DNA of 21,242 bases, from positions 1-21,242 of the IMG/VR virus record IMGVR_UViG_3300020172_002945. One strand, 5' to 3'. Source of the DNA: a virus. Of the stretch, positions 6,606-9,331 are shown in pieces (position 1 is the first letter of the stretch; each line of letters begins with the position of its first letter). The position numbers were made by a program, and so were the translations under genes. The notes under the pieces were generated by a model, which worked only from the letters and a program-made list of their open reading frames with translations, did not search any database and was not told the origin of the DNA.

Positions 6606-6995
6606 ATGATACTTTCAAGAGAAATAAACATAAAGATTACAGACCACAACTACCAATACTACGATGACTTAGGATATGATACCGTCTTAGGAGAAACGAT
6701 AGTAATACCGGTTGAGTTGTTACCCAAAGGCTCACACTACAAAATAAAATGTAAGTGTGATGGGTGTGGTATTGAAAAAGAAGTTATATTCAAAAACTAC
6801 CTTAAATATGGTAACAAATTTGGCGAATACAAATGTAGAAAGTGCTCTGAACAGAAAAGAAAGAAAACACTCAGAAAAAATTATGGAGTCGACTATCCAA
6901 TACAAAACAAAAGAGTACTCGATAAGATGCAGAAGACACTCATAGATAAATACGGAGTCGACAACATATCCAAAAAGAAAAAAAAGGATGAATAA
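6606..6995 (+). CDS. Zinc-ribbon, homing-endonuclease-associated protein, probably truncated, 129 aa
   Basis: The ATG at 6606 (MILSREINIK) is chosen over a GTG at 6588. The middle has a Cys4-type zinc ribbon (CKCDGCG around residues 49-55, then YKCRKCSEQKRKK near 80), followed by two copies of a Y-G-V-D element: KNYGVDYPIQN and DKYGVDNIS. This layout is typical of DNA-binding N-terminal parts of phage endonuclease-like proteins in which YGVxNPxQ repeats precede a nuclease domain. No nuclease domain is present: the frame ends in a poly-Lys run read from an A-rich tract, and its last 8 nt overlap the RNase R start. It is probably a remnant or a frameshifted gene. DNA-binding is inferred from the motif. 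Confidence 0.6.
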   Translation: MILSREINIKITDHNYQYYDDLGYDTVLGETIVIPVELLPKGSHYKIKCKCDGCGIEKEVIFKNYLKYGNKFGEYKCRKCSEQKRKKTLRKNYGVDYPIQNKRVLDKMQKTLIDKYGVDNISKKKKKDE

Positions 6996-8886
6996 ATTAA
7001 TCGCAGGCGACACGATAGAGGCAAACATAGAGTTTATGCCATCTGGTCACGCCACATTAAAAATCGAAGAAAACGAATTCTTCATACACAAAAGTAAAAC
7101 CGCAAATGCACTACACCTAGACAAGGTCAGGGCAGTTCTGTTCAAAGGTGAGAAAAAAATCGAAGCAAAAGTTGTTGATGTACTGGAAAGATTCAAAACA
7201 AGTTTTGTAGGAACAGCTCAGGTCAACAACAAACACACATTCGTAATACCCGATAGTAATAAGATGGTGGCAGACTTCTACATAAAAGGAGAACACCAAG
7301 CAGAGAACGGGCAGAAAGTTATTGTGGAGATGATAGACTGGGAAAAGGAAAAGAAATCACCACGCGGAAGAATTACCAAAGTACTCGGTCTAAAAGGTGA
7401 GAATGAGACCGAGATGAACGCAATTATGTACGAGTACAACTTACCAATTGACTTTCCACAAGAAGTTATTAACGAAGCGGTACTAATCTCAGAAGTTATA
7501 CCAGAATCCGAAATAAAGAAAAGAAGAGACATCAGGCACTGGACTACAATAGGAATAGATCCACATGACTCCAAAGATGCAGATGATACAATTGGTCTAC
7601 ATTTCGAAAATGACAAAAGACTAATCTCTATAAACATAGCAGATGTCTCACACTACGTAAAACCAGGTAGTGAACTCGATAAAGAAGCATATCGAAGGTC
7701 TAGTTCAGTATATCTTGTTGATAGATGTGTACCGATGATACCACACAATCTATCTAATGGTATATGTTCGTTGAAGTCTGGAAGTGACAAACTATGTTAC
7801 TCTGTCATAATCGAACTAAATAACGATGGAAGAATAGAAGATAGTTGGTTCGGAAGAACTGTCGTAAGAGTTGACAAAGACTTCTCTTATGAGATGGCAC
7901 AAGAGGTTATCGATAGAGGCACAACAGAATTAGAAACAGAGAAAGTAATACTCGAACTCGATAGACTTGCCAGAAAGATGAGAAAGAGAAGATTAGCCGG
8001 TGGATCACTTGAACTCGGTGGCGTAGAAGTCAAATTCAAGTTAGACGGAGACGGAAAGAAACCAATAGGAGTTTACCTAAAAGAACAAAAGGAAGCAAAC
8101 CACCTTATTGAGGAATATATGTTACTAGCAAACAGAGAGGTAGCAAGATTCATAAAGTCGAGAAAATTACCATGTGTTAATAGGATACACGAAGAACCTG
8201 CAGAAGAAAAATTAGAACATGTAAAAACTTTCATCTCCGGACTCGGATATATGATAAACTATGGCTCTACCGCAGAAAGAACTAAACTGGCAATAAACCA
8301 ACTTATAAGGGATGCCAAAGGAACACCAGAAGAGAATATAATCACTACTATAATAATAAGGGCACAACAGAAGGCAAAATATTCAACTAAAGACATTGGA
8401 CACTACGGATTGGGTTTCCAACATTATTCACACTTTACTTCACCAATTAGGAGATATAGTGATATACTCGCACACAGACTTCTTTCGAGAGCACTAAACT
8501 CAGAAGGATATAACAAAGATATAAACTTTGGTGAATTAGATAAACAATGTGAATGGATTTCCAAACAAGAGATGGCCGCCACAAAAGCACAAAGAGACTC
8601 AGTGAAATATAAACAAGCCGAGTATCTACAAGACAGAATAGGACAAGTATTCGAGGGTATTGTATCAGGTGTTCTTGAAAGAGGAATATACGTAGAACTC
8701 ACCGAAAGTAAGTGTGAGGGAATGATTAGAATCTCAGAGATGGGTGGAAAGTGGACAGCATACCCGGACAAATATGCAGTTATGAACGAGTTCGGTGAGA
8801 CGATTCGATTAGGAGATCCAATCAAAATCGTTATAAAGGCAGTAGATCTTGAAAAGAAACAAATTGATTTTATAAAATTCAACTAA
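6988..8886 (+). CDS. rnr: Ribonuclease R (RNB family 3'-5' exoribonuclease), 632 aa
   Basis: The protein processively degrades structured RNA from the 3' end. Two cold-shock domains occupy about residues 8-65 and 70-135. The RNB catalytic domain runs about 180-510 and carries IGIDPHDSKDADDTIG, with the metal-binding Asp set D191, D197, D199 and D200, then ADVSHYVKPGSELDKEA and SHFTSPIRRYSD near 480. An S1 domain fills 552-632. It lacks the N-terminal helix-turn-helix and basic C-terminal tail of E. coli RNase R (813 aa) but has every catalytic element, so it should be active. The start overlaps the end of the truncated zinc-ribbon ORF. The cassette is inverted relative to the flanking capsid and portal genes. 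A complete RNase R in a phage is unusual; possible roles are host mRNA turnover or removal of stable RNA. Confidence 0.95.
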   Translation: MNKLIAGDTIEANIEFMPSGHATLKIEENEFFIHKSKTANALHLDKVRAVLFKGEKKIEAKVVDVLERFKTSFVGTAQVNNKHTFVIPDSNKMVADFYIKGEHQAENGQKVIVEMIDWEKEKKSPRGRITKVLGLKGENETEMNAIMYEYNLPIDFPQEVINEAVLISEVIPESEIKKRRDIRHWTTIGIDPHDSKDADDTIGLHFENDKRLISINIADVSHYVKPGSELDKEAYRRSSSVYLVDRCVPMIPHNLSNGICSLKSGSDKLCYSVIIELNNDGRIEDSWFGRTVVRVDKDFSYEMAQEVIDRGTTELETEKVILELDRLARKMRKRRLAGGSLELGGVEVKFKLDGDGKKPIGVYLKEQKEANHLIEEYMLLANREVARFIKSRKLPCVNRIHEEPAEEKLEHVKTFISGLGYMINYGSTAERTKLAINQLIRDAKGTPEENIITTIIIRAQQKAKYSTKDIGHYGLGFQHYSHFTSPIRRYSDILAHRLLSRALNSEGYNKDINFGELDKQCEWISKQEMAATKAQRDSVKYKQAEYLQDRIGQVFEGIVSGVLERGIYVELTESKCEGMIRISEMGGKWTAYPDKYAVMNEFGETIRLGDPIKIVIKAVDLEKKQIDFIKFN

Positions 8887-8887
8887 A

Positions 8888-9331
8888 ATGGGAAGGCTAA
8901 AATCGAAAGAAATGGTTGTGTACACCTTAGAAGTCGAGTTGGATGATGAATCACTCGACTTCTACGAGGGTCTACTCACCAGGTACAACCAATGGAAAGT
9001 ATTCAAAAGAGAGGTCAGACTCACTGGTCTACTGAATTCTGGTAAGAAGGTACAATTCGATATAGAAGACGCGAACCTACTAATATACACAGATATGGAC
9101 GCCATACAATACATACACAAAGCAGTCTTCCGTGCAGACAACATAAAATTCATACTGAAGGACGAAAAAATTTTCAGTATGTCATTGTCTGGTGAGATAC
9201 TTCCAACATCGATGGGAACTTGTATAAAAGGAATACTGGACGAAGGAATACCACTAAAGATAAAGAAGTATAACGACAAACGAGGTAGAATAACTTTCTA
9301 CATAGACATAGAAGACGACAAAGCAGCATAA
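8888..9331 (+). CDS. Hypothetical protein co-transcribed with RNase R, 147 aa
   Basis: The ATG lies directly after the RNase R stop (1 nt gap), so the two are almost certainly co-transcribed and possibly translationally coupled. An internal Met9 (MVVYTLEVELDDES) is an alternative start. The protein is soluble with alternating strands and basic/acidic patches, including WKVFKREVRLTG and IKKYNDKRGRITFYI near the C-terminus. I recognise no family. The tight linkage suggests a partner or accessory of the exoribonuclease, but nothing in the sequence proves this. A strong terminator follows immediately. Confidence 0.75.
   Translation: MGRLKSKEMVVYTLEVELDDESLDFYEGLLTRYNQWKVFKREVRLTGLLNSGKKVQFDIEDANLLIYTDMDAIQYIHKAVFRADNIKFILKDEKIFSMSLSGEILPTSMGTCIKGILDEGIPLKIKKYNDKRGRITFYIDIEDDKAA

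Follow-up and report, generated by a model that had tools for sequence, protein, structure and literature searches.

The 21,242-base stretch of viral DNA analyzed here (IMG/VR record IMGVR_UViG_3300020172_002945, positions 1 to 21,242, hereafter the window) carries a gene for RNase R, flanked by two small genes, up135 and dn147, with which it forms a plus-strand trio that extends from the ATG of up135, at position 6606, to the stop codon of dn147, at 9331. The identification of the central gene as an RNase R is firm, and the trio is best explained as an old, vertically maintained three-gene unit of the huge-phage lineage that includes LR745206.1. An initial annotation, made from the sequence alone, placed this cassette correctly, and its observation of an RNase R in the head-gene block was confirmed, while its interpretation was borne out only in part. 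There is about an even chance that the phage enzyme acts during infection, together with a phage transfer-messenger RNA (tmRNA) and its partner, SmpB, to clear RNA that is non-stop, cleaved, or structured.

The two cold-shock domains, the RNB and S1 domains, and the four aspartates named in the initial annotation were all recovered by domain search and alignment, with E-values of 3.5e-99 for RNB, 1.4e-24 for CSD2, 8.7e-9 for OB_RNB, and 6.4e-9 for S1, and the closest solved structures are those of RNase R (8cdu, 1.1e-104; 5xgu, 4e-76). The enzyme scores 594.6 bits against TIGR02063, the NCBIfam equivalog of RNase R, which is 3 bits short of the cut-off of 597.85, and positions 1–67 of this model are unmatched because the N-terminus of the protein is missing. 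It reaches 446 bits against TIGR00358 (cut-off 368.6) and just 168.4 and 198.9 bits against the RNase II models, and the tree also places it nearer to RNase R. The catalytic aspartates are retained in all 64 distinct phage sequences and in 40 of the 40 Bacteroidota sequences, and the conserved Tyr and the Arg pair of the HFTSPIRRY segment are present in the same 64 phage sequences. One split relative, L058, reads HFTSCIRRY. The gene is under purifying selection across the lineage (omega of about 0.02–0.10), and its product is presumably an active enzyme.

The phage protein shares the CSD1-CSD2-RNB-S1 order and the catalytic residues of the bacterial RNase R (Bacteroidota; TIGR02063), at 42–46% identity, but differs from it in the loss of the N-terminal extension, a helix-turn-helix region (about 55–63 residues fewer than in the Bacteroidota enzymes), in its long, separate branch, and in its occasional division into two proteins. 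It also terminates at the S1 domain, without the lysine-rich (K-rich) C-terminal tail of the Escherichia coli enzyme, as do most of the sampled Bacteroidota RNase R. The term "complete" used in the initial annotation is thus valid for the catalytic core, and not for the host-type protein, given the absence of the N-terminal extension.

The trio was originally interpreted as a special insertion in this phage, a view that is contradicted by the conservation of its order and strand throughout the lineage. It lies beside the portal gene in 13 close relatives, in which the RNase R is 70–100% identical to that of the window, and the order mcp-protease-up135-RNase R-dn147-portal recurs in LR745206.1 (634,780 bases), where the identity of RNase R falls to 54%. 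By the refutation criterion of the initial annotation itself, the arrangement counts as ancestral, and a recent insertion of the cassette was rejected. In the huge-phage survey (PMC7162821), LR745206.1 falls in the 634-kb class, and the genomes of more than 634 kb are the Mahaphages of Bacteroidota. Nor is the gene rare within the lineage, although a full-length phage RNase R had been considered rare. The trio, its RNase R whole or split, occupies 64 of 66 distinct viral portal/protease junctions (from viral contigs showing both genes), with all three genes in 60 of them, an RNase R split by an insert in four, no recognized dn147 in L095, and no RNase R in L098, where up135 and dn147 overlap directly. 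These counts over-represent contigs bearing RNase R, because the searches were seeded with portal and with RNase R sequences. In the fairer, portal-seeded set (L021–L100), L098 alone lacks the gene at a visible junction.

An RNB domain was found in all 11 large records, and RNase R is present in the unannotated records of the huge phages LR745206.1, LR756502.1, and LR756504.1. The slot of LR756502.1 contains only up135 and dn147, with its RNase R about 150 kb away, while in LR756504.1, the slot is filled by a homing endonuclease of full length (phrog_3339, 9.8e-119), and a very divergent RNase R is located elsewhere. In the portal tree, the outgroup branch of which is very long, LR756502.1 and L098 both have near-basal positions, and RNase R may have either joined or left an older up135-dn147 pair. 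The apparent absence of the cassette from L059–L070 and L086–L089 was rejected as evidence of true absence, because these contigs show rearrangements and stop short of this part of the genome.

The suggested comparison with the Bacteroidota enzymes bears out an affinity with them. When 30 phage RNase R sequences, including that of LR756502.1, which is placed as sister, were combined in a tree with sequences from 40 Bacteroidota and four other bacteria, they form a single clade nested within the Bacteroidota, with a Shimodaira–Hasegawa-like approximate likelihood ratio test (SH-aLRT) value of 100, and the same clade is recovered with a reduced set. Because the phage enzymes form one clade inside the Bacteroidota RNase R, the simplest reading is that the gene was captured once, long ago, from a Bacteroidota host. 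The sequence of LR756504.1 is too divergent to be placed (p = 0.099 in the approximately unbiased test of an independent capture). The RNase R of two human-gut "phage" scaffolds, L017 and L018, branches among the Bacteroidota, and these scaffolds may be host DNA. A separate record described as a complete staphylococcal phage, PV200784.1 (L287), contains a carboxylesterase-RNase R-SmpB run that resembles a host chromosome.

In some relatives, the enzyme is encoded in two parts. In L032, L033, L058, L085, and L093, read in reverse-complemented locus coordinates, a first piece of 507–521 amino acids is followed by a second piece of 119–124 amino acids with its own ATG, and the two are separated by a gene on the opposite strand, which encodes 362–432 amino acids where intact, and has matches among the HNH and homing endonucleases (phrog_559, 5.2e-103; phrog_9084, 1.3e-27; phrog_7140, 5e-18). 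This endonuclease is accompanied in four of the five loci by an open reading frame (ORF) of 47–49 amino acids, which is ribbon-helix-helix-like by weak Pfam matches only. The endonuclease is truncated or disrupted in two of the loci, L033 and L085, and in two other relatives, L242 and L256, the pieces occupy different frames and no endonuclease separates them. Omega is low in both pieces (0.05–0.10 in the first, and 0.06–0.11 in the second, where computable). An intein was rejected, given the stop after the first piece and the separate ATG of the second, as was a group I intron, for the same reasons and the lack of an Rfam intron.

Four of the split alleles form one clade in the RNase R tree, yet the seven split rows are scattered on the portal tree, where they require seven changes, a count no lower than for shuffled labels. 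The split allele therefore moves from one phage to another, as a homing element would. Similar cases, in which a homing endonuclease cuts an enzyme gene and both frames are retained, are known from nrdA of phage Aeh1 (mobE), the split gene 43, and the T4 topoisomerase gene, and precedents in which the split phage genes keep their function are cited in the same source (PMC2988022). The present case differs in its target, RNase R, in the opposite-strand endonuclease, which is usually joined by the ribbon-helix-helix-like ORF, and in the two relatives that remain split without any endonuclease. The persistence of a two-piece RNase R once the endonuclease is gone would be a demonstration that its RNB core and S1 part can act in trans.

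The second component of the proposed system is a conserved element of 370 nucleotides, a tmRNA homologue, which lies beyond the left edge of the window. In the closest relative, it is located at G009:19207-19577, approximately 1.2 kb past the point that matches the start of the window, and it is present in all 11 large records, nine by blastn, G005 by profile (L254), and LR756504.1 by Rfam. The Rfam tmRNA model is matched end to end (E 2.6e-10), with 33.4 and 32.8 bits against a gathering score of 47, and ARAGORN detects no tmRNA in the element. The seven-pair acceptor stem, with the G3.U70 alanine pair, is intact in 27 of 27 homologues, and a tag frame of 27–29 amino acids that ends in a stop was read automatically in 26 of them, the script having mis-anchored the other (L221). 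The tag is conserved (G-K/N-x-N-E-V-x-x-R-E-D-L-V-A-A-L...), unusually long, and lineage-specific, and does not end in ALAA. Over 42 pairs of the T-arm and long helix, counted without pseudoknots, 97.6% of the cells are paired, in comparison with 35–51% when the alignment is slid, and 18 pairs show double changes. The 3' end reads ACAA or ACTA, rather than ACCA, so CCA would need to be added, and in the nearest relative, an intrinsic terminator hairpin follows immediately.

All five records of more than 430 kb encode SmpB, as does one fragment of 118 kb. Huge phages were already known to carry tmRNA and SmpB from the survey (PMC7162821), the searched text of which makes no mention of RNase R. 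The large records also carry tRNA arrays, and a GOLLD RNA match of 287 bits was found near tRNA genes in the 635-kb phage LR745206.1 (L260:2540-2945).

What is observed directly is an intact, conserved gene, its origin, and the tmRNA and SmpB genes of the same lineage, from which the enzymatic activity, a joint action with tmRNA–SmpB, and its timing may be inferred. An RNase R captured once from a Bacteroidota host, reduced to its catalytic core, and held by purifying selection would provide the infected cell with a phage-supplied 3'-5' exonuclease that digests non-stop, cleaved, and structured RNA. In combination with the phage tmRNA–SmpB, ribosomes stalled on broken mRNA would be freed and the mRNA destroyed. 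The partnership between RNase R and tmRNA–SmpB in the decay of non-stop mRNA is well established (PMC3949413, PMC4131195), and the E. coli enzyme degrades this mRNA with tmRNA–SmpB by way of its K-rich tail (PMC3949413). By analogy, the phage enzyme may do a similar job without it. A number of points weigh against this role. The missing tail is needed for the recruitment of the E. coli enzyme to tmRNA-rescued ribosomes (PMC3949413), although most of the sampled Bacteroidota enzymes are without it as well. In addition, RNase R and smpB are not neighbors (195 kb versus 333 kb in LR745206.1), 15 records of Lak phages have SmpB, with no Lak phage among the 40 RNase R matches listed, and L098 keeps the tmRNA, up135, and dn147 with no RNase R in its slot. 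A more specific version, which is doubtful, would have the divergent long-tag tmRNA, SmpB, and the tail-less core RNase R form a private non-stop-mRNA surveillance set that replaces or redirects host ribosome rescue, with an RNase R that can work as a two-protein enzyme.

The same enzyme may instead be a general scavenger that, in late infection, breaks down the mRNA and rRNA of the host for nucleotides or transcript clearance, with no link to tmRNA, an alternative that is a little less probable again. The RNase R family is processive and tolerant of structure, and a core enzyme devoid of recruitment domains, found in all 11 large records, fits this role, but the co-occurrence of tmRNA and SmpB, which is possibly unrelated, is left unexplained. 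It is unlikely that the enzyme acts mainly in RNA maturation, trimming the 3' ends of the phage tmRNA, the many tRNAs, and the GOLLD RNA, not all the genes of which encode CCA. The ACAA or ACTA ends, the tmRNA that runs straight into a terminator hairpin in the nearest relative, and the tRNA arrays and GOLLD RNA of the large records are in keeping with such a role, although host exonucleases could do the same trimming.

The destruction of RNA used or made by the RNA-targeting defenses of the host is very improbable. This function is plausible in general terms, with host RNase R being tied to type III CRISPR in staphylococci (reviewed in PMC12320835), but no defense or anti-defense neighbors were found, and the position in the head-gene block is stable in the whole lineage. 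The initial annotation had also raised the possibility of countering tmRNA, which is the less likely direction because the lineage encodes its own tmRNA and SmpB. Least probable of all, the gene would be a passenger, kept mainly for sitting where homing endonucleases repeatedly land. The slot of LR756504.1, the endonuclease-related up135, and the splitting of RNase R in the relatives are in keeping with such a site, while two findings argue against it, namely that RNase R and each of its split pieces are under purifying selection, and that LR756502.1 retains the gene 150 kb outside the slot.

If the clean-up of non-stop mRNA with tmRNA–SmpB is indeed the role of the phage RNase R, the virus would supply all the core components of both trans-translation and the decay of non-stop mRNA, and the three may represent a clean-up kit for broken messages that the phage brings with it. 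In the limited open-access literature searched, nothing was found that links a phage RNase R to tmRNA–SmpB. The enzyme itself is ordinary, and is informative for its lineage, its tmRNA–SmpB setting, and its split form.

The two neighbors of RNase R differ in part from their first description. The upstream gene, up135, which contains a Cys4 zinc-ribbon-like part and YGVD repeats, is indeed endonuclease-related, its proteins aligning to just the first ~122 of the 313 positions of the homing endonuclease family phrog_12131, and no nuclease domain was found in it by family matching. It is not the decaying remnant that had been proposed, given its conservation across the lineage (67–81% identity to the window copy, with an omega of 0.02–0.15 where the synonymous sites are unsaturated), and a pseudogene was rejected. 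Foldseek found nothing with its model, which is too weak (predicted local distance difference test, pLDDT, 70). It may be guessed to be a regulatory DNA-binding protein.

The downstream gene, dn147, which had been described as an unknown partner, looks like a protein of the head-protease fold, rather than an RNase cofactor. It evolves rapidly (25–61% identity among relatives), and its model best matches the T4 gp21 protease 5jbl (a VIA Z of 6.2, with 3.5 A across 110 residues, against 3.6 for the next match), and also many viral prohead proteases. The profile aligns with that of the adjacent head protease over 54 columns (hhalign E 6.9e-5, probability 63%), and a Foldseek search of the PDB gave no significant match. 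The predicted fold is likely, rather than proven, since the tool itself rates a Z of this size as modest. The GE..HP and SSR protease motifs are present in 22 of 22 adjacent proteases and 0 of 23 dn147 proteins, and dn147 is probably an inactive relative of the head protease. The dn147 of L244 resembles that of the window almost as much as the copies of close relatives do, while the adjoining RNase R is far more diverged, which indicates that dn147 is exchanged independently.

Table 1. Features of the window and examples of the tmRNA homologue in related loci (L numbers).
Feature	Position	Strand	Evidence or remark
gp23-type major capsid protein	2521..4218	-	Gp23 2.9e-28
Head maturation protease fused to repeat-rich scaffold region	4298..6469	-	phrog_207 6.2e-30; GEFDHP and SSR motifs intact
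TGGATTTTTTA, two copies in the divergent protease/up135 spacer	6533-6544, 6588-6599		within 6533..6599
up135, 129 aa	6606..6995 (alternative GTG start 6588)	+	phrog_12131 7.5e-9, phrog_5104 1e-14, DUF7487 8.2e-7
RNase R core enzyme, 632 aa, OB/CSD1-CSD2-RNB-S1	6988..8886	+	domain, family, and structure matches
Catalytic motif D191-PHDSK-D197-A-D199-D200	7558..7587	+	D191, D200 align with Salmonella D272, D281
RNase R split site of relatives (about residue 510)	8515..8520	+	intact in window
dn147, 147 aa, predicted T4 gp21-like head-protease fold	8888..9331	+	model pLDDT 83.4
Bidirectional terminator-like palindrome, dn147/portal interval	9334..9362	both	13 pairs, T runs on both strands
T4-type portal protein (gp20)	9380..11092	-	Portal_T4 1.5e-59
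tmRNA homologue examples	L261:1501-1872; L015:12007-12390; L301:1501-1871		

The portal, protease-scaffold, and capsid genes follow the T4 order on the minus strand of the window, and the trio ends in a terminator-like palindrome shared with the portal gene, both as initially described (Table 1). Other plus-strand genes in the head block include a gp4-like head-closure gene (12312-12932), a clamp loader (17712-18677), and gp25 (18696-19067), and as such genes are common here, the strand alone is no sign of foreign origin. The bS21-encoding Bacteroidetes phages (PMC9723584) likewise have, among their TerL, portal, protease, and capsid genes, one that is related to translation and runs on the opposite strand, although this gene encodes the ribosomal protein S21, whereas the present lineage has RNase R in this position and its bS21 elsewhere in the genome.

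A third copy of TGGATTTTTTA is found at 4282-4293, ahead of the capsid gene, and the element is placed 62–73 nucleotides upstream of the capsid and protease start codons across the relatives. It is a possible candidate for a late-promoter or regulatory element, although it is not enriched in the window over shuffled sequences when two mismatches are allowed, and a sigma-70 promoter scan of the window gave fewer matches than the shuffles. The gene at 14903-15268 encodes a short late sigma factor that resembles T4 gp55 (phrog_234, 4.7e-7), and its conservation in the lineage is very strong (85–100%). The capsid gene and its relatives have a proportion of synonymous differences (pS) of 0.35–0.46, below that of the neighboring genes of the same genome pairs, which suggests codon constraint. 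The plus strand of the head block also encodes a Type II-like glutamine synthetase (13686-14750), which is missing from some relatives, and gene blocks beside the portal gene are inverted in L006 (12511-14877), L064, and L088.
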